From positions 1-36,118 of the forward strand of contig JASHTF010000246.1 of the NCBI GenBank assembly GCA_030040715.1: a DNA stretch of 36,118 bases. The letters run 5' to 3'. Below the pieces are notes generated by a model. The model worked only from the letters and a program-made list of their open reading frames with translations. It ran no database searches and was not told the DNA's origin. Below, piece by piece: positions 9,307 through 36,118 of this stretch (positions are counted from its first letter, which is position 1; every line of letters starts with the position of its first letter). The DNA comes from Gammaproteobacteria bacterium. GTDB lineage: Bacteria > Pseudomonadota > Gammaproteobacteria > Steroidobacterales > Steroidobacteraceae. The translations under genes were made by a program, and so were the position numbers.

Positions 9307-10881
9307 ATGAAGTTCGCACCAGTATTCGTAGGTTTGATAGCCTCGTTGCTCCTTTGCTCTCGTCAAGCGACGGCTCAAGAGGCATCTGGCTCCCAGTCTG
9401 TCGGCCTTCCCTCTGGCACGGAGCCCTTGCGCGGGTCAGTCTCCGCGGCGGGCCAACCCTACCGATCGATCGACGGTAGGCGCATGTGGCAATACGTGGT
9501 CGAGCAGGCGCAGATTGCGGAGCAGTATCGGAGCAACGGTCATGCTCAATTTTGGGGGCGCATCGTCGGCACATCCGGCGACGTCGCCGATGCGCAGTGG
9601 CTGCTCACCCAATACCGACGAATAGGACTAACCGATATACGTCTCCAGACAGTCAAATTCTTTGCCCCGCAGTGGTCAGCCCGATCGTGGAGCATCACAT
9701 TGACCGCCGGAGCCAAGACCGCGCAGCTCGCCTCTGCGCAGCCGTCCTACGGTAGCCCCACAACCGACGGCAAAGAGTTGGATCTTGAGATTGTGTATGC
9801 GGGGCTTGGAAGCGCTGCGGATTTCGCCGGACGCGACGTTCGCGGGAAGGCGGTACTGCTGGTCAAGGCTCCGGCGAGCTATCAGATCGGCGCGGCAGAG
9901 GTCCTGAAACGTGCCGAGGATCATGGGGCGGCCGCCATCTTTTCCATGGACATGCGCGGCGGCGACTATAACTCGCAGGCCTACCGGGCATATACCAGCG
10001 TTCCAAGCTTTGACCTGGGCACCGAGGACGGCGAGCAGGTGCGCGCGATGATTGGCGATGCTCCCGCCAACGAGCCGCCGCGGGTCAAGATCCGCTTGGA
10101 TGCCAGTTGGGTCCCGAATCAGAAGACCTATCTGGTATGGGGCTCGCTACCCGGAGAGACCGATGAGACCATCTATGTGATCGCCCACCGCGACGGCTGG
10201 TTCGATGCGGCCGGTGACAACGCCAGCGGCGTCGCTTCGATGCTTGGCTTGGCGGAATACTACGCGCGGTTGCCGATGAGTCAGCGCCGCCGCACGATGA
10301 TCTTCATCGGAACGGACGGGCACCATAACGTCAAGCCCGGCGGTTTCGGCCGCGAGTGGCTGGTCGCCAATCGTGGCAAATTGTTCTCGAAGACGGCCTT
10401 GATGATCAACGATGAGCACCCCTCGGAGCTGCTCACGCACGGCGGCAATGCCGGATGGACCACGACCACGATTCCCCTCGAGTGGTATGCGGGCGGTGCC
10501 TCGCGGCCACAACTGGAGCGAATCGCGCGTGCCGCCTTCCATCAATTCGCAGTGCCCATCTGGGCTGAACCGAGCGCCCGGCCGCCGGCCGGTGACCTGG
10601 GGAGATTCGATTGGTTCTTGCCTGGAGTCGTCGCACAGTCCAACGATTTCGCCTATATGCACACGACCGCAGACACGCCCGACAACGTGTCAGCGGCTGG
10701 GCTCGAAGCGGTAACGCGTGCCTACGCGAAGATCATCGACGAAGTAAACCGGCTGCCTCTGACGGATTTGCAACGGCCGGCAGCAGCCGATCCGAATCCT
10801 CCCGACTCGCCGCAGGGGTATTTGAGCCTGGTCGGGTGCGCGGCATGGGTGCGCGACTCATCGAGCGATTGCGCGCACTAG
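9307..10881 (+). CDS. Exported M28-family-like peptidase with PA domain
   Basis: 524 residues from ATG 9307, which has a gagagg site 7 bases upstream and starts a signal peptide (FVGLIASLLLCSRQATAQ, cleavage near 23). The upstream open frame is not coding. A PA-like insert (about 155-255; GRDVRGKAVLLVKAP and GAAAIFSMD) precedes the zinc-aminopeptidase core. Metal ligands are visible as His294 (VIAHRDGW) and Asp304 (AGDNASG), with NDEH near 390 and YMHTTADTPDN near 455 giving the last histidine. The M28 EE pair (catalytic Glu plus ligand) is not seen at its expected place, where the sequence reads GTDGHHN (335-341). Activity may therefore differ from typical aminopeptidases. It probably acts in the periplasm or outside the cell. 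Confidence 0.85.
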   Translation: MKFAPVFVGLIASLLLCSRQATAQEASGSQSVGLPSGTEPLRGSVSAAGQPYRSIDGRRMWQYVVEQAQIAEQYRSNGHAQFWGRIVGTSGDVADAQWLLTQYRRIGLTDIRLQTVKFFAPQWSARSWSITLTAGAKTAQLASAQPSYGSPTTDGKELDLEIVYAGLGSAADFAGRDVRGKAVLLVKAPASYQIGAAEVLKRAEDHGAAAIFSMDMRGGDYNSQAYRAYTSVPSFDLGTEDGEQVRAMIGDAPANEPPRVKIRLDASWVPNQKTYLVWGSLPGETDETIYVIAHRDGWFDAAGDNASGVASMLGLAEYYARLPMSQRRRTMIFIGTDGHHNVKPGGFGREWLVANRGKLFSKTALMINDEHPSELLTHGGNAGWTTTTIPLEWYAGGASRPQLERIARAAFHQFAVPIWAEPSARPPAGDLGRFDWFLPGVVAQSNDFAYMHTTADTPDNVSAAGLEAVTRAYAKIIDEVNRLPLTDLQRPAAADPNPPDSPQGYLSLVGCAAWVRDSSSDCAH

Positions 10882-10882
10882 T

Positions 10883-10946
10883 GGTGGCAGGGGGTGTGGC
10901 ACTGCTCATCGGTTGGTGGCAGGGGGTGTGGCACTGCTCATCGGTT
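10883..10946. repeat. Perfect 32-bp tandem duplication covering the OPT gene stop
   Basis: Two identical 32-bp units at 10883-10914 and 10915-10946. On the minus strand each begins AACCGATGA, the last two codons and stop of the OPT transporter gene, so the 3' end of that gene has been copied once into the gap before the convergent peptidase gene. Confidence 0.9.
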
Positions 10947-12995
10947 CGCGAGGCGAGCAATCCATCGATACAGCAGGAAGGTCACCGCTGCGAATGCGAT
11001 GCCGCCGGCCCAGATGCTCGCGGTCTCGAACCCCTCGCCGACCAGCGCGATCGGTGCCGCATTACCGGAGAAGGCGATCGCCGCGGCGAATACGATTCCG
11101 AGCAGACTTTCCCCCACGATCAGGCCCGAGGCCAGCAGCACGCCGAGCTGCCGGGTGGCCTCCGGCCTGCGGGCGCGATCGGCGCGCCGCGTGAACAGCC
11201 AGCCGACGATGGCACCGACCACCACCATGAGCGTAGTCGAGGTCGGCAGGTAGATTCCCAGTCCCACCGCCAGCGGCGGCAGGCGCGCGGATTTGGCGGC
11301 ACGGCGCAAAACCTCATCGAGCACGATACAGCCGGCGCCGATGAGTGCGCCGATGCCGATCAGGCCCCAGTCGATATTGTTCTGGATCACCCCCTGGGCG
11401 AGCGCCGAGATCAACCCTGCCTGGGGTGCTGGCAGGGCGCGCGCCGGATTCACGCCGGGCGCACCCACGAAGCCGTAGGCATGATTGAGGAGATCGAGCA
11501 CCGGTGGGATGACCACCGCGCCGGCGAGGACGCCGATCACCAGTGCCCACTGCTGCTTGGCGGGGGTGGCCTCGACGAGCTGGCCGGTCTTGAGATCCTG
11601 CAGATTGTTGTTGGCGATCGACGCGATGGCGAATACCACGGCGGTCACGAACAGTGCGAATGCCACCAGCGTCTTGCCCGCGCCGGGTGGCAGGCCGGAT
11701 TTCACGCCCAGCATGAGCAGCAGCGCGAACAGGACCACCACCAGGATGCCAACGCCGGACAGCGGGCTGTTGGAAGCGCCGATGAGACCGGCCATATAGC
11801 CGCACACCGCTGAAACCAGGAAGCCCATGATGGCGACGAAGGTCACGGCCTCGATGGTCAGCACCCAGGCGCGGTCGCCGAGGCCGCTCGTGGCGCTGAA
11901 ATGCCAGAACAGCCAGGCCACCGGTAGCAGGCATAGCAGCGACACCATGCCTACCTGGCCAATCGGAATGTCGCGCTCGACCGGCGGTAATGTGTGCGCC
12001 TGACCGGCCTTGCGCACGCGCGCTGCGGCCATGGCGCCCGCCAGCCCGCCGGTAACGGGCTTCACGAGCGTCCCGAGCGTCCAGACCGCGGCGACCCCGA
12101 TCGCGCCTGCTCCGACGAAGCGGACCGAGTGGCTCCAGGCGCCCTGCGCCACATCCGCGGCGGCACCGGCCAGCGGGTGCAGCGCGGTGAAGTAGGGAAC
12201 CGCCCAGCCCCAGCCGATCAGCGCGCCCACCAGCATGGCGAAGCCACACGACAGACCCACTAGGTGGCCGATCGCAAACAGGGCGAACGACAGGCTGAAG
12301 TCGAAGCCGGTCGTTGCGCCCTTGCTACCGACGCGAAAGTAAAACGCCACGTCGCTCGCGAACATGCGCGTCTGAACCAGGAGGTAAAACACCGCTGAGA
12401 CGATTGAGCCAACGACCACGGCTTTCAGCCCGGCACCGTGAGACTCTACCGTCTCGGTGTCACCCTCCTGCTCGCGGCCGGCACCGACCTTCAGTACCTC
12501 CGCACAGGCCACGCCCTCCGGGTACGGCAGGTCCGAGTCGGTCACCAGCGCGCGGCGCAGGGGAATGGTGTACATCACGCCGAGGATCCCACCCGACGCG
12601 CAGATGATGAACGAATCCCAGAATGAAAAGCCGCTCCACCACCCGACGATGATCAGGCCCGGAAGCACGAAGATGATGGCGCTCAGCGTGCCGGCCGCCG
12701 AGGCGACGGTCTGTACGATGTTGTTCTCCTGGATGGTGGCGCCGCGCAAGCCGCGCAGGATCGCCATGGAGATCACGGCGGCGGGAATCGAGGTGGAGAA
12801 GGTGAGGCCCGCCTTGAGGCCGAAGTAGACGTTGGCCGCCGTAAAGATCAGCGTGATGACGACGCCGATCAGCAGCCCTCGCAGAGTGATCTCCGCGATA
12901 GCCTCGGCCCTGGGAGCTGCCGATCGTCGCCCGGCCGGCTTGGCTTCTTCCCCGCGGGCCCGGAGCGTCTCGGGTGTTACCTGACCGGAGCCCAT
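10938..12995 (-). CDS. OPT family oligopeptide transporter
   Basis: 685 residues with about 14-16 membrane segments. This is a proton-coupled OPT-family carrier for small peptides or metal chelates in the inner membrane. The N-terminal core LRGLLIGVVITLIFTAANVYFGLKAGLTFSTSIPAAVISMAI and the following RGATIQENNIVQTVASAAGTLSA and DSDLPYPEGVACAEVLKVG are diagnostic of the bacterial OPT subgroup. Other conserved stretches are GASNSPLSGVGI and NNNLQDLKTGQLVEATPAKQQ. The first 35 residues are hydrophilic and charged. No clear ribosome binding site precedes ATG 12995. It is the last of three minus-strand genes (citrate synthase, ferritin-like protein, OPT). Substrate unassigned. Confidence 0.93.
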   Translation of the reverse strand: MGSGQVTPETLRARGEEAKPAGRRSAAPRAEAIAEITLRGLLIGVVITLIFTAANVYFGLKAGLTFSTSIPAAVISMAILRGLRGATIQENNIVQTVASAAGTLSAIIFVLPGLIIVGWWSGFSFWDSFIICASGGILGVMYTIPLRRALVTDSDLPYPEGVACAEVLKVGAGREQEGDTETVESHGAGLKAVVVGSIVSAVFYLLVQTRMFASDVAFYFRVGSKGATTGFDFSLSFALFAIGHLVGLSCGFAMLVGALIGWGWAVPYFTALHPLAGAAADVAQGAWSHSVRFVGAGAIGVAAVWTLGTLVKPVTGGLAGAMAAARVRKAGQAHTLPPVERDIPIGQVGMVSLLCLLPVAWLFWHFSATSGLGDRAWVLTIEAVTFVAIMGFLVSAVCGYMAGLIGASNSPLSGVGILVVVLFALLLMLGVKSGLPPGAGKTLVAFALFVTAVVFAIASIANNNLQDLKTGQLVEATPAKQQWALVIGVLAGAVVIPPVLDLLNHAYGFVGAPGVNPARALPAPQAGLISALAQGVIQNNIDWGLIGIGALIGAGCIVLDEVLRRAAKSARLPPLAVGLGIYLPTSTTLMVVVGAIVGWLFTRRADRARRPEATRQLGVLLASGLIVGESLLGIVFAAAIAFSGNAAPIALVGEGFETASIWAGGIAFAAVTFLLYRWIARLANR

Positions 12996-13128
12996 TGCTC
13001 AGACCACGACACGTTCCCGCTGTGACTGCGAACGACCTGAACCATCGACACCGAGACGATACAGGGTCCTTCAAAAGTGGACCAGTCCCATCAACCAGCC
13101 GCCGGGGGTAACTCCTGGCTCGAGTCAG

Positions 13129-13201
13129 TCGCTCAGGCGCGATTCGCCCAAGCGCGATTCGCTCAGGCGTCATTCGCAGGCGTCATTCGCTCAGGCGGGA
13201 T
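13129..13201. repeat. Five-unit 15-bp minisatellite at the ferritin-like gene stop
   Basis: Units at 13129-13143, 13144-13158, 13159-13173, 13174-13186 (13 bp) and 13187-13201 are variants of tcgctcaggcgNNAT. On the minus strand the first unit holds the last codons and TGA of the ferritin-like gene (ATCCCGCCTGAGCGA). The others repeat it downstream, several keeping the TGA. Confidence 0.85.
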
Positions 13202-14288
13202 TGCTCTGTTGGGGTGCCTTGCGAATGAGGCGTAACGCGAGCCGTACCAGCGCGGGTACGGTCTGAGGCCGCAGCAGGCGCGCGTCGTATCCACCGAAGC
13301 GCCGATCGTTCTCTTGCAGGCACAGGCGCAGCAACTCGGCTGGGCCGAGATCGCAGACCGACACCGAATTCGCGCCGCTCAGGGTGAAGTTGTTGTCCTG
13401 GCGCTTTTCATTGCCGTCGGCATCGAGGGTGCGCGCGAGGCCGATGCGCTCATAGACGAGAAACACCCACGCGGCCGCCACTCTGAGCTCGAAGCGCAAG
13501 CGTCGCCACCACGAGAGCTGGCGTCGATGCCAGGCGACCCAGTTGGCGAACAGTAGAATGTGACGACACTCGTCCTGGATCACCGGCTCGAACGTTGCAA
13601 CCAGCTGCGCCGGAAATAGCCCCGAGCGACGCGCCACTTCATACAAGCCAAACGCGAAGAAGCTGTCGATGCATTCACTGTATCCGGTGACGAGGTAGGC
13701 CCACTCCGGGTCGCTCGGGTATGCATCCACCGCCTCGCTGGCGAGCTTGATGCCATATGCGGCGACCATCCGTGACAGCACCTCCCGGTGGCGGCTCTCT
13801 TCCCAGGCGTTCAGTCCAATGGTGGCGCGCATCTCAGCATCGTCGATTGTGTTGGCGAACGCCGCCATGCGCACACGCGCCTTGGCTTCAGTCTGCACCG
13901 CAATGTTCCAGATCGGGAGCGAGATGATGCGTTCCAGCGTCGACGGCGGCAGCACGGGCCAGTCGATCACCGAAGGGCGGTAGGGATTGAACGTGTCGCG
14001 AAACATGCGGCAGACGGCGCGCTTGTGCGAGTCGCTACCGACCTGGAGCGCACCTTCGAGGTCGCTCGTCCAGTGGCGGGCGATACGGTCGGCCGCTTCG
14101 AGCGTGGCAGCATCGGGCGCGGCGTGGGGAAGGCGCGGTGCCGTGAAGCCGGCCACCAAGCGCTCTACATCAAATGCGTCTCTGGAGCCTTTGTCTTGGC
14201 TTTGTCGCCGCCGCGACGACGTACGGCCGTGCACTGCCTCTGGCGCGGGCAGCGTCGTGGTCGACGAAGGCGGTGCCATCCACTGCAT
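13191..14288 (-). CDS. Ferritin-like di-iron (rubrerythrin/oxygenase-fold) protein
   Basis: 365 residues. A four-helix-bundle di-iron core lies between about residues 120 and 250. Candidate ligands are Glu134 in QTEAKARVRM, the ExxH in EESRH (Glu164/His167), Glu205 or Glu217 in the third helix, and the ExxH in DECRH (Glu240/His243). This pattern of two ExxH plus single Glu residues fits class-I ferritin-like oxygenases and oxidases. The substrate is unknown; AurF-like N-oxygenases are one comparison, without close match. The first 40 residues are low-complexity and basic, and no strong ribosome binding site was found, so the start could be further in. It sits between citrate synthase and OPT genes on the same strand. 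Confidence 0.75.
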   Translation of the reverse strand: MQWMAPPSSTTTLPAPEAVHGRTSSRRRQSQDKGSRDAFDVERLVAGFTAPRLPHAAPDAATLEAADRIARHWTSDLEGALQVGSDSHKRAVCRMFRDTFNPYRPSVIDWPVLPPSTLERIISLPIWNIAVQTEAKARVRMAAFANTIDDAEMRATIGLNAWEESRHREVLSRMVAAYGIKLASEAVDAYPSDPEWAYLVTGYSECIDSFFAFGLYEVARRSGLFPAQLVATFEPVIQDECRHILLFANWVAWHRRQLSWWRRLRFELRVAAAWVFLVYERIGLARTLDADGNEKRQDNNFTLSGANSVSVCDLGPAELLRLCLQENDRRFGGYDARLLRPQTVPALVRLALRLIRKAPQQSNPA

Positions 14289-14370
14289 GAGCGAGCAGGC
14301 GATGTTGGCGTGCTCGCCGCGCTGAGTATTGTCCGGGAGTGCTGACTTAACTCAGTCTGTGCTGGGAGAC

Positions 14371-14427
14371 GCGGATTATGTTGATATCCGCGGATTATGC
14401 TGATATCGGCGGACTATGCCGATACCG
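14371..14427. repeat. Three-unit 19-bp tandem repeat at the citrate synthase stop
   Basis: Units at 14371-14389, 14390-14408 and 14409-14427, of the form gcggaNtatgNNgataNcN. On the minus strand the first unit is the gene end CCGGTATCGGCATAGTCCG (Pro-Val-Ser-Ala-stop). The next two are diverged copies carrying TAA where the TAG was. Confidence 0.88.
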
Positions 14428-15499
14428 GCGGACCGACGTAGTGCGACTGCGGTCTGATCAAGCGTCCGCGCAGCACCTGTTCGCGGGCATGAGCGATCCA
14501 GCCGCCAACACGACTCGCGGCGAAGACGCAGGTGAATGCACCGACCGGAAAGCCGAGCGCCTCGAGGAGCAGTGCGGTGTAGAACTCGAGATTTGTTTGC
14601 AGCGGGCGGCCCGGTTTGCGGTACGCGAGCAGCTCGAGCGCCGCGTCCTCGACGGCTTCGGCCAGCCGCAGCCTGTCGACGGCGACCTGTCCGGCCGCGG
14701 TGAGCAGTTGCAGCGCCGCTTTGATCGCGTCGGCCCGCGGATCACGAACGCGGTAGACGCGATGCCCGAAGCCCATCAGCCGCTCACCGCGGGAAAGCGC
14801 AGCCTCGAGGTAGGCTCGCGCCCGCTCGGTGCTGCCGATGGCATCGAGCATCTCGAGCACCGGCCCCGGTGCCCCGCCGTGCAGCGGACCCTTGAGCGCG
14901 CAGCACGCGCCGATCACGGCCGCGGCGAGGCCTGCGTGCGTGGAGGCGATGACGCGGGCCGTGAAGGTCGATGCATTGAGCCCATGATCACTCGCGGTCA
15001 CCAGGTACCGATCGAGTGCCGAGACCTGCGCGGCGGCGGGTGCGGTTCCATGCAGCATGCGCAGCACATCGGCAGCGTGCGAGAGCAGCGGCTCAGGCGC
15101 GAGCGGCTCGAGTCCGCGCTGACGGCGAATCACGGCCGGCGTAAATACCGCCGGTGCTGCAACGAGGTTCAAGGCGGCCGTCAAGCCATCGCCATCCTCG
15201 AGGCGCGTGAGCAATGACAGGACGGCGTCGAAGGCGGGCAGATCGAGCAGCGGGCCATCAAGCGCATGCACGTGCTCGAAGACCCGGACTCTCGCCGTGC
15301 CCAGACCGGCCGCGAGCGCAGCTGCATCCGGGCAATCGGCGATGAGCTCCGCCCACAGGAGCGCGATAACATCCTCGTAGCGGCTGCGGGCGACGAGCTC
15401 ATCGAGCGAACGGCCGCGAATGATCAGCCGACCGGCTTGCCCATCGATGTCCGACAAGACGGTCTCGGCGGCGATGACGTCCTCGAGCCCGTTCAGCAT
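14414..15499 (-). CDS. Citrate synthase family protein
   Basis: 361 residues from ATG 15499, chosen over an upstream ATG at 15607 because cggaggacc lies just before it and family homology starts at MLNGLEDVIAAETVLSDIDG. The fold condenses oxaloacetate and an acyl-CoA. Active-site regions are present: GPLHGGAPGPVLEML (first catalytic His), GFGHRVYRVRDPRA (second His) and TNLEFYTALLLEALGFP, where the usual catalytic Asp is Glu. That Glu variant is known to me from other citrate-synthase-like proteins. It could be a citrate or methylcitrate synthase, or an unassigned paralogue. It is divergent from a second, HTH-bearing citrate synthase gene 116 bp away, with a palindromic control region between them. 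Confidence 0.88.
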   Translation of the reverse strand: MLNGLEDVIAAETVLSDIDGQAGRLIIRGRSLDELVARSRYEDVIALLWAELIADCPDAAALAAGLGTARVRVFEHVHALDGPLLDLPAFDAVLSLLTRLEDGDGLTAALNLVAAPAVFTPAVIRRQRGLEPLAPEPLLSHAADVLRMLHGTAPAAAQVSALDRYLVTASDHGLNASTFTARVIASTHAGLAAAVIGACCALKGPLHGGAPGPVLEMLDAIGSTERARAYLEAALSRGERLMGFGHRVYRVRDPRADAIKAALQLLTAAGQVAVDRLRLAEAVEDAALELLAYRKPGRPLQTNLEFYTALLLEALGFPVGAFTCVFAASRVGGWIAHAREQVLRGRLIRPQSHYVGPPVSA

Positions 15500-15573
15500 G
15501 AACGCTGGTCCTCCGATAGGGCGCCGCGGCACTCGCGTGCATCGGCGCTGTTCGACTACCCTATGCAATCCAT

Positions 15574-15587
15574 GATTGACGTCAATC
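15574..15587. promoter_or_regulatory. Perfect 14-bp palindrome between the divergent citrate synthase genes
   Basis: GATTGACGTCAATC is its own reverse complement. It contains a -35-like TTGACG on both strands, so it may serve both divergent genes. It abuts the next inverted repeat at 15588-15604. Confidence 0.55.
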
Positions 15588-15604
15588 TTGATCCATTCGA
15601 TCAA
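15588..15604. promoter_or_regulatory. Inverted repeat TTGATC-N5-GATCAA next to HTH-citrate synthase start
   Basis: Six-base arms (15588-15593 and 15599-15604) around five bases, 11 bp before the ATG at 15616. Its TTGAT/ATCAA arms resemble the TTGAC/GTCAA arms of the neighbouring palindrome, so both may be sites for one protein. Confidence 0.5.
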
Positions 15605-15615
15605 CATGAGTCCTT

Positions 15616-16815
15616 ATGGGCTGGCTGACCGCGGCGCAGGCGTTAGGCGTGCTGGGCGTACGCCCCCAGACCCTGTACGCCAACGTAAGTCGCCGCAGAA
15701 TCCGTGCGCGGCCAGATCCGAAGGACCCGCGGCGCAGCCTGTATCACGAAGCCGACGTACGAAAACTCGCCCGGGCTCGCTCCGGGACACGCAGGGCAGA
15801 GCGCGTGGCGGCCGGGACGATCCAGTGGGGCGATCCGATCCTGTCGTCCGCAGTCTCGACCGTCGCGCACGGTCGGCTCTGGTACCGCGGTCGGGATGCC
15901 GTGGCGCTCGCCGAGACACAAACCCTCGAGGAGGTCACGAGCCTGCTGTGGGAAGCCGATTCCTTCAGCCTGTCAGCACCCGCTCGGCGCCGCACGCGGG
16001 GGCGGCGCTGCAAGCCGGGCGCGGCCGCTACGCCGACGGATTCGTTGCTGCCGCGACTGTTCGTCGCGCTCGCGAGTCGTGCCGGCACCGATTCTCCTTC
16101 ACACGGGCGCGCGCTGTCCGTGCTGCGGGCCGAGGCGGCCGGCGTGCTCTCGACGTTGGTGGAGGCGGTGATCGGGCCACCCGATCGCGGGCCGGTCCAC
16201 GAGCGGTTGGCCGCCGCTTGGCGCTGCGGCCGAGCGGCCGATGTTCTGCGGCGGGCGGTCGTGCTGCTTGCGGATCACGAGCTCAATGCCTCCACCCTTG
16301 CCGCACGCGTGACGGTCTCGACCGGTGCCTCCCTGGCGTCGGGAGTTCTGGCCGGCCTCGCCACCCTCAGCGGGCCCTTGCACGGGCGGGCATCGCAGGG
16401 CGTCTTCGAGCTGATCCGTGCGGGACAGCGCCAAGGAATGCAAGCCTCGGTGCGCGATTGGCTGCTGCAGGGCCGTCCGCTGAGCGGGTTCGGACATCCG
16501 CTCTATCCGGACGGGGACGCGCGGGCGAAGGCGTTGCTGGCTCGGTTTCCGGTTCCGATCGAGTATCGGGAACTGCGCGCTGCCGTCGAGGAGCTCGCTG
16601 GCGAGCTGCCCAACATCGACTTCGCGCTGGCGGCGGTGACAGCAGCCTATCGGTTGCCGATGCACGCGCCGCTGGCCGTGTTCGCACTCGCCCGCGGCGT
16701 CGGCTGGCTGGCCCACATGCTGGAGCAAGTCGCGACGGGACACCTGATCCGACCTCGCGCGCGCTACACGGGGCCACCCATCGCGGTAGCGTCGGCTGTC
16801 GAAGCCCACCGATAA
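15616..16815 (+). CDS. Citrate synthase-like protein with N-terminal MerR/excisionase-type HTH
   Basis: 399 residues. Residues about 1-52 form a short winged-HTH-like domain, MGWLTAAQALGVLGVRPQTLYANVSRRRIRARPDPKDPRRSLYHEADVRKLA split as helix-turn-helix then basic wing, as in MerR/excisionase (HTH_17) domains. A citrate synthase domain follows. Active-site regions are TLSGPLHGRASQGVFELI, SGFGHPLYPDGDARA and PNIDFALAAVTAAYRLP, so both catalytic His and the Asp are in place. The arginine-rich GFGHRVYR loop seen in the divergent paralogue is replaced by HPLYPDGD. I infer a DNA-linked or regulatory citrate synthase homologue that may bind the palindromes just upstream. No clear ribosome binding site at 15616. 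The CPBP protease gene follows closely. Confidence 0.85.
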   Translation: MGWLTAAQALGVLGVRPQTLYANVSRRRIRARPDPKDPRRSLYHEADVRKLARARSGTRRAERVAAGTIQWGDPILSSAVSTVAHGRLWYRGRDAVALAETQTLEEVTSLLWEADSFSLSAPARRRTRGRRCKPGAAATPTDSLLPRLFVALASRAGTDSPSHGRALSVLRAEAAGVLSTLVEAVIGPPDRGPVHERLAAAWRCGRAADVLRRAVVLLADHELNASTLAARVTVSTGASLASGVLAGLATLSGPLHGRASQGVFELIRAGQRQGMQASVRDWLLQGRPLSGFGHPLYPDGDARAKALLARFPVPIEYRELRAAVEELAGELPNIDFALAAVTAAYRLPMHAPLAVFALARGVGWLAHMLEQVATGHLIRPRARYTGPPIAVASAVEAHR

Positions 16816-34798: not shown

Positions 34799-36118
34799 TC
34801 ACCAGGAGATTCGAGAGGACTTCCTTCGACTCTTCAACCTGATTCCGGTCAGCCCGAGGAGGCCTCCGACGAGCAGCGCCCAGGTCCCCGGCTCCGGGAC
34901 CGCGGCAGAGGAGCCGCTGGCGGTCACGACGTCGATGTCGATGGAGTCAGCGCTGATCACCTCGGTCAGATCCAGCGCGCTGAGATCCGCGCAGTGCCAT
35001 AGGTCACCGCCCTCGTCGGAGCAGTCGACCGCATCCAACGACAGCGTGCTCAAATCCTCGGCTGTGAAGCTAGCGACGTTGACCACATCGAAACTGTCGC
35101 CGGCCGCGAGCTTGAAGCCCCCCGTCAGGTCGAGCGCGAGCCCCCCATCGAGCGCGGCCAGACCCGTGACGCTGAGCGAGCCGTATTGGCCCAAGCCCTC
35201 GAGCACGAAGTCGAGCACGCCGGAGGAGGTTTGTCCGAAATTACCCGTGATGCTCTCGGGCGCGGCGAGCTGCAGTACCCCGCCGTTCGTCACCGTCCCC
35301 GCGCCGCCGTTGACACTGATATCGTCGCCGAGCGCCGTATTGCCGCCGGCGAAAATCAGATTCCCGTTGCCGATCGTAATCGTGCCGCCCGACCAGGACC
35401 CGAAGCTCGCGCCGGAGCCGCCATGCACGGTGACGCTCGCCTGGTTGTCGATCTCGACGTTGCCAATGATTTGTCCTCTGTTGGTGATCGGGCCGATCGA
35501 GCCGGTGCTGTAGATGGCATAGCTGGGGCCGCCGATCATGCCCGAGTTGTTGAGCGCACCGATGTTGCCGCTGTTGTAGAGGCCTGCGCCGTCCGGGCCG
35601 CCCGAGAAACCGCCGATCCCGCCGGTATCGCCGCTGATCGCGCCATTGTTGGTCAGCGTCCCGATCATCCCGGCATTCGACACACCCGCCCCGCCCGCGC
35701 CGCCCACGAGACCGCCGAACCCGCCGGCACCGCCGACGATCGTGCCGCTATTGGTCAGCGTCGTGATGGTGACGGCGTTCGACACACCCGTCCCGCCCGC
35801 GCCGCCTGCGACACCGCCGACCCCGCCGCCACCGCCGACGATCGTGTTGCTGTTGGCCAGCGTCGTGATCGTGCCGGAATTCAACACACCCGCGCCGCCC
35901 GCGCCGCCTGCGACACCGCCGACGGCGCCGGTACCGCCGATGATCGTGCCGCTGTTGGTCAGCGCCGTGATCGTGCTCGCGTTCGCAGCGCCCGCGCCGC
36001 CCGCCCCTCCAGCGCTGCTGCCGTACCCGCCGCGCGCGCCGCTGATCGTGCCGCTGTTGGTCAGCGTTCCGATCGTCCCGGCGTTCGACACCCCCGCGCC
36101 TCCCGCTCCACCCTTTAA
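34799..36118 (-). CDS. PEP-CTERM-sorted repeat protein, beta-helix-like (partial, 5' end outside window)
   Basis: At least 439 residues, open to the right edge of the window. The C-terminus (34799-34900) has the PEP-CTERM sorting signal: VPEPGTWALL, a hydrophobic segment VGGLLGLTGI, then basic RLKSRRK. Such proteins are handled by an exosortase and go to the surface or exopolysaccharide; no exosortase is in the window. The body toward the N-terminus has tandem 34-residue repeats (see 35528-36118). A non-repeat part near residues 200-380 has glycine/aspartate-rich, beta-strand-like sequence (GNVEIDNQASVTVHGGS, SVNGGAGTVTNGG). It is convergent with the PepSY gene. The true start and length are unknown. 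Confidence 0.88.
   Translation of the reverse strand, partial: LKGGAGGAGVSNAGTIGTLTNSGTISGARGGYGSSAGGAGGAGAANASTITALTNSGTIIGGTGAVGGVAGGAGGAGVLNSGTITTLANSNTIVGGGGGVGGVAGGAGGTGVSNAVTITTLTNSGTIVGGAGGFGGLVGGAGGAGVSNAGMIGTLTNNGAISGDTGGIGGFSGGPDGAGLYNSGNIGALNNSGMIGGPSYAIYSTGSIGPITNRGQIIGNVEIDNQASVTVHGGSGASFGSWSGGTITIGNGNLIFAGGNTALGDDISVNGGAGTVTNGGVLQLAAPESITGNFGQTSSGVLDFVLEGLGQYGSLSVTGLAALDGGLALDLTGGFKLAAGDSFDVVNVASFTAEDLSTLSLDAVDCSDEGGDLWHCADLSALDLTEVISADSIDIDVVTASGSSAAVPEPGTWALLVGGLLGLTGIRLKSRRKSSRISW
35528..36118 (-). repeat. 34-residue (102-bp) coding repeats, Gly-rich and TNSGTI type
   Basis: About five and a half in-frame units running out of the window. Each is GGAGGAG, then a 27-residue strand part of the form xxNxxTIxxLTNSGTIxGG, then GxxGGxA. 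Unit length is constant at 34 residues. The pattern NxG(T/M)I with Gly loops resembles rungs of a parallel beta-helix in adhesins. Confidence 0.9.

Follow-up and report, generated by a model that had tools for sequence, protein, structure and literature searches.

Tandem repeats that span stop codons are already in print. In the sections consulted of a study of Yersinia pestis (PMC3689786), 16 of 88 variable-number tandem repeats (VNTRs) overlap gene boundaries, ten at stops and six at starts, and the authors propose that copy number over a stop might alter the protein less. The repeats of Borgs also have their first unit in gene ends, according to the parts consulted of PMC9879509. A 36,118-nucleotide contig of a gammaproteobacterium in the family Steroidobacteraceae (JASHTF010000246.1, assembly GCA_030040715.1; the whole stretch is called the window here) has arrays of this kind at the stop codons of three genes in a row. 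The genes encode an oligopeptide transporter (OPT) family protein, a ferritin-like protein and a citrate synthase. A preliminary description, made from the sequence without database searches, knew of no named element of this form; the stop-overlapping VNTRs (PMC3689786) and the Borg repeats (PMC9879509) are precedents. The arrays are best explained as three independent, lineage-specific short tandem duplications that were filtered by selection and are harmless across stops (probability about 0.7).

The three genes are consecutive in the gene calls on the minus strand and would be transcribed in the order citrate synthase, ferritin-like, OPT transporter. The first unit of each array holds the last codons and the stop. 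The OPT gene (10938-12995, minus strand; PF03169, TIGR00733) has its TGA stop at 10938-10940, and its array (10882-10946) consists of two identical copies of 32 bp. The first base of this array directly follows the stop (TAG, 10879-10881, plus strand) of a convergent M28-peptidase gene, and the array fills the whole 56-base gap between the two genes. An array of 65 bases in a 56-base convergent gap must touch a gene end. The ferritin-like gene (13191-14288, minus strand) is an open reading frame with an uncertain start, placed at 14156 by the gene caller. Its TGA (13191-13193) lies in the first of five units of 15, 13, 15, 15 and 15 bp (13129-13201), which are 80% alike in Tandem Repeats Finder (TRF) at period 15. 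TRF also calls this region at 13129-13206 (period 15), 13124-13197 (period 28) and 13164-13190 (period 13). No family match is above threshold and those to AurF and Rubrerythrin are sub-threshold, so the name of this gene is weak. The citrate synthase gene (14414-15607, minus strand; PF00285, NF009005; start uncertain, 15499 in the gene caller) carries three units of 19 bp (14371-14427), with TAG at 14414-14416 in the first unit and TAA in units two and three. TRF reports this array at 14371-14433 with 3.3 copies and 88% likeness. A second citrate synthase gene (15616-16815) lies back to back with the first in divergent orientation and has an HTH_17 match below the cut-off. The sequence, TRF, a unit-by-unit check and the gene calls all agree with the preliminary description on the repeats at three consecutive minus-strand genes, the array positions, the unit lengths (32, about 15 and 19 bp) and the change from TAG to TAA. 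Since the units are identical in the OPT array, 88% alike in the citrate synthase array and 80% alike in the ferritin-like array, the three arrays are probably of different ages. In 100 windows simulated with an order-2 Markov model, TRF found 191 arrays scoring at least 40 and none scoring at least 80, the best being 71. The real window has four arrays scoring at least 80, and three of them are the stop-spanning arrays.

The three arrays are mutually unrelated. When each array was searched against the draft genome (4.12 Mb in 428 contigs), the results were the array itself and weak matches only, the best other matches having E values of 3.08, 0.174 and 0.507. The preliminary description had likewise argued against one repeat family. 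Mycobacterial interspersed repetitive units (MIRUs) are one dispersed, apparently mobile family that inserts at start codons. A single family, MIRU-like or otherwise, is rejected for the window because the draft genome holds no convincing second copy.

The arrays are also lineage-specific as judged by comparison with related genes. The full comparison of gene ends covers the OPT and ferritin-like genes; for citrate synthase the best outside match is 40% identical and too distant. None of the 80 OPT relatives, all of which were tested, has an array over the stop. In the relative L141 (83% identical), a different array, with a unit of 18 bp, starts 20 bp after the stop, and L168 (87% identical) has a weak 13-bp array (score 40) 6 bp after it. 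The genomes of L141 and L168 appear to be the congeners G006 and G010, since their matches to the end-joining protein Ku share contig numbers and coordinates. Among 19 ferritin-like relatives, a stop-spanning array occurs in one, L133 (58% identical); it differs from that of the window and is weak (score 42). Of the 35 own-genome and genus genes with a stop array, ten have an orthologue-like match in the sampled DNA. Among the matches listed (best eight per gene), one pair has a common 21-bp array (gene 0 of L068, and L259), and gene 11 of L240 has an orthologue, in L248, that carries a different array.

The placement of arrays was analysed in three samples, with home-made gene calls based on codon usage and start choice rather than a standard annotator. 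The own-genome sample comprises 80 stretches (797,140 of 4,116,629 bases) with the window left out. Ten of the first twenty contigs were picked for weak array matches and C97 and C397 for citrate synthase matches; the others were sampled in approximate steps along the contig numbering. The genus sample comprises 646 kb in 40 stretches from 12 of 14 congeners, many on contigs with citrate synthase matches. The control set is 80 OPT loci of mixed taxa, mostly other bacteria; L141 and L168 were kept in the noncoding-placement test and left out of the controls in the short-gap and Ku tests. Two early tests served as a first look only: random placement with the window included (14 of 108 arrays over a stop vs 4.9 expected), and noncoding placement with the window excluded, a score of at least 50 and at least half noncoding bases (6 of 34 vs 2.4, P 0.03).

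For TRF arrays scoring at least 40 with at least 30% noncoding bases, placement in noncoding DNA predicts fewer stop overlaps than are found in the own genome (10 of 56 arrays vs 5.0 expected, P 0.024) and the genus (14 of 54 vs 5.2, P 0.0004), or 24 vs about 10 expected when pooled. Starts are overlapped by four arrays in the own genome (5.0 expected) and by two in the genus (5.6 expected). At a score of 50 the own-genome stop overlap is 7 vs 3.5 (P 0.058). The 35 arrays of the 80 OPT loci overlap stops twice (3.8 expected) and starts never (4.0 expected). Noncoding arrays number 40.9, 54.1 and 21.1 per 100 kb of noncoding DNA in the own genome, the genus and the OPT loci, respectively. The period is divisible by three in 48 of 81 wholly noncoding arrays (own genome and genus), which suggests that genes were missed in long gaps; the noncoding null is loose. 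A null restricted to short gaps, with gap geometry controlled and the window excluded, therefore replaces these tests. In gaps of up to 250 bp, the 46 own-genome and genus arrays overlap stops 20 times (12.3 expected, P 0.01) and starts three times (12.0 expected, P 0.0006). In gaps of up to 150 bp (36 arrays) the counts are 19 vs 13.8 for stops (P 0.053) and 3 vs 11.8 for starts (P 0.0005). The own genome by itself gives 7 vs 4.6 for stops (P 0.15) and 1 vs 4.2 for starts (P 0.049) in gaps of up to 250 bp, and the control loci, with only seven arrays, give 1 vs 1.3 and 0 vs 1.1. In co-directional gaps, array coverage on the stop side exceeds that on the start side both in the own genome (0.033 vs 0.020) and in the genus (0.047 vs 0.022). 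The avoidance of start codons is thus the firm and larger asymmetry, and the surplus at stops is modest. The preliminary description had called for a check of repeats against stop codons and had suggested a slippage bias at gene ends. In the sampled stretches arrays do lean to gene ends in this clade, but the enrichment shrinks when gap geometry is considered. The slippage bias is upheld only in part: much of the apparent enrichment is geometry and start avoidance, which points to the survival of duplications more than to their origin.

The reading frame leaves no mark on the stop arrays. Their period is divisible by three in 9 of 27 cases, which is the frame-free expectation, whereas among coding arrays the count is 207 of 258 (both counts from the genus and the own genome, window included). 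Long pre-existing repeats are unnecessary, since 16 of 27 exact noncoding duplications (period at least 12; own genome, window and genus) match only 0-3 bp beyond the two copies. Under the preferred explanation, short tandem duplications would be common in part of the genus, probably through local template misalignment that needs little homology. Within genes mostly those that keep the frame would survive, and those over start codons would be lost. A duplication across a stop would retain the last codons and the stop in the upstream copy and add DNA downstream; it should be harmless because the upstream copy is intact and the protein is the same, whatever the unit length. Arrays would then remain at gene ends with the stop inside the first unit. 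This account starts from observations, namely that the arrays exist, are independent of one another, are missing over the stop in relatives and have frame-free units, and that arrays avoid starts and tilt moderately to stops; from these we infer the copying mechanism and the neutrality of the arrays.

Four points weigh against independent duplication and selective survival as the full explanation. The oddest is the run of three genes, which exceeds the prediction from independence. In the window 3 of 29 genes carry a stop-spanning array, whereas in the rest of the genome 10 of 643 sampled genes do (binomial P about 0.01); if genes are taken as independent, a genome of 3500 genes should hold about 0.013 consecutive triples. 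No adjacent gene pair with different stop arrays was found among the 643 own-genome or 573 congener genes. This statistic is post hoc, as it was the cluster that prompted the examination of the window, and it is softened by the overdispersion of noncoding arrays over the sampled stretches (P 0.0002), which makes the independence assumption too strict. All three known OPT genes of the genus (window, L141 and L168) also have an array on the stop or no more than 20 bp beyond it, with a different unit in each; none of the 78 other relatives does. The stop excess persists under geometric control (with P 0.053 in the shorter gaps), so survival alone may be insufficient. Finally, the stop-overlapping VNTRs of Y. 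pestis are of low diversity, which their authors read as constraint (PMC3689786, sections consulted) and which fits neutrality badly. The cluster, the OPT gene ends and the remaining stop excess would suit a mutational hotspot, in which duplications in this clade would arise chiefly at gene 3' ends, for instance at sites where transcription ends or where convergent genes run into each other, or during break repair that involves fill-in and joining by Ku. Ku was found in five of 15 genus genomes, including that of the window, and in 68 of 217 in the family. Among the genus genomes (G000-G014), the five with Ku are the larger ones, at 3.7 to 4.5 Mb, and the ten that lack it measure 2.2 to 3.3 Mb. 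In the sampled congeners, 13 of 304 genes from Ku-bearing genomes have a stop array, against 1 of 269 from genomes that lack Ku (P 0.002; P 0.049 without G010). However, without G010 the noncoding array densities of the two groups are alike (34.9 vs 32.4 per 100 kb, P 0.85), and Ku presence follows the clade in the seven genomes compared by relatedness in one protein. Outside the genus (78 control loci), Ku-bearing loci are not richer in arrays than Ku-less ones (13.5 vs 22.7 per 100 kb noncoding, P 0.21; stop arrays at 0 of 194 vs 1 of 410 genes). A further set from the family, with 2 arrays in 11 Ku-bearing loci and 5 in 18 Ku-less ones, is too small to be informative. Ku as a cause is therefore a weak lead, drawn post hoc from the genus and not borne out elsewhere. 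A MutS domain was also considered as an explanation and shows no pattern: 12 of the 15 genomes in the genus have it, and both G010, rich in repeats, and G007, poor in them, are among these. The avoidance of starts is also larger than the stop excess, and a hotspot at gene ends is unlikely. It is still less likely that part of the genus has an unusually active, nearly homology-free duplication process aimed at gene 3' ends, for which nicks or breaks where transcription stops may be filled in and sealed, with Ku/LigD as one candidate. If so, new sequence would form preferentially at gene ends in this group; the three neighbouring genes would mark a local burst, and three species would each have been hit separately at the end of the OPT gene.

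A functional element at the 3' end, either a series of fail-safe stops or an RNA feature, was also suggested in the preliminary description and is very unlikely; as an RNA feature it would act in termination or stability. Stop triplets do recur in later units of several arrays, and a next in-frame stop within ten codons is slightly commoner in array genes (9 of 29 vs 22.1% of 1198 others), with a median distance of 25 codons vs 36. The former difference is not significant (Fisher P 0.26), however, and the periods ignore the frame; units of 32 and 19 bp shift the next stop copy out of frame. Over the 80 bases from the stop, array genes show no difference in folding energy (P 0.67; GC-corrected P 0.95). 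There is no terminator-like site (a stem followed by a T run) within the arrays and no common sequence among them, and the sole Rfam match, to 5.8S rRNA at 21.1 bits against a cut-off of 42, is taken as chance. The OPT relatives, moreover, do without an array over the stop. Copies made or misplaced by the metagenome assembler are at least as improbable as a functional element. The genome is a draft estimated at 85% complete and the OPT copies are identical, which would be compatible with such an error, but the units of the other two arrays have diverged and similar arrays are present in several congeners.

Other repeats were noted in the same material. A perfect duplication of 2 x 18 bp at 1010-1045 of the window has zero extra matching bases and lies about 20 bp upstream of a gene called at 1065. 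Within a glycine-rich gene (34799-36091), a 102-bp unit is repeated 5.2 times at 35586-36113; the end of this gene matches PEP-CTERM weakly and below threshold. Two convergent genes of congener G006 are separated by 100 bases that are filled by 8.6 copies of a 13-bp unit (L243, 12010-12120), and this array runs over the stop codon of each gene. Congener G010 (L246-L254) has 25 noncoding tandem arrays in 13 kb of noncoding DNA, seven of them over stop codons. The density of noncoding arrays is very uneven between congeners, at about 193 per 100 kb of noncoding DNA in G010 and 21 in G007. Such a clade could serve for studying what determines how often short duplications arise in bacteria. The window also illustrates that a striking positional habit can stem from selection, since a duplication across a stop is harmless and one across a start is not.

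Among the top-ranked open-licence literature, no title concerns the enrichment of tandem repeats at stop codons relative to a geometric null, which is not proof of absence. The closest described systems each share part of the pattern. Like the satellites of prokaryotes (PMC6749651), the arrays are unique, unrelated and scattered in the genome, and their abundance depends strongly on the species; the term 'stop codon' is absent from the main text of that paper, and gene-end position is not treated under that term. Like the MIRUs of mycobacteria (PMC12548453, as far as consulted), they are intergenic repeats at gene boundaries, although the window arrays are not a family. The Borg repeats, in the parts consulted of PMC9879509, are similarly independent and fast-arising, with genic units divisible by three and most intergenic units not. 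Borg repeats are perfect, A-rich and carried on archaeal extrachromosomal elements, whereas here the genome is GC-rich and only the OPT units are identical, the ferritin-like and citrate synthase arrays having diverged. The VNTRs of Y. pestis (PMC3689786) have shown copy-number variation between strains, while the arrays of the window are known from one strain, and the sections consulted note no adjacent cluster such as the three in a row described here. In both cases, short unrelated tandem arrays enclose a stop codon, and the same protein-sparing argument applies.

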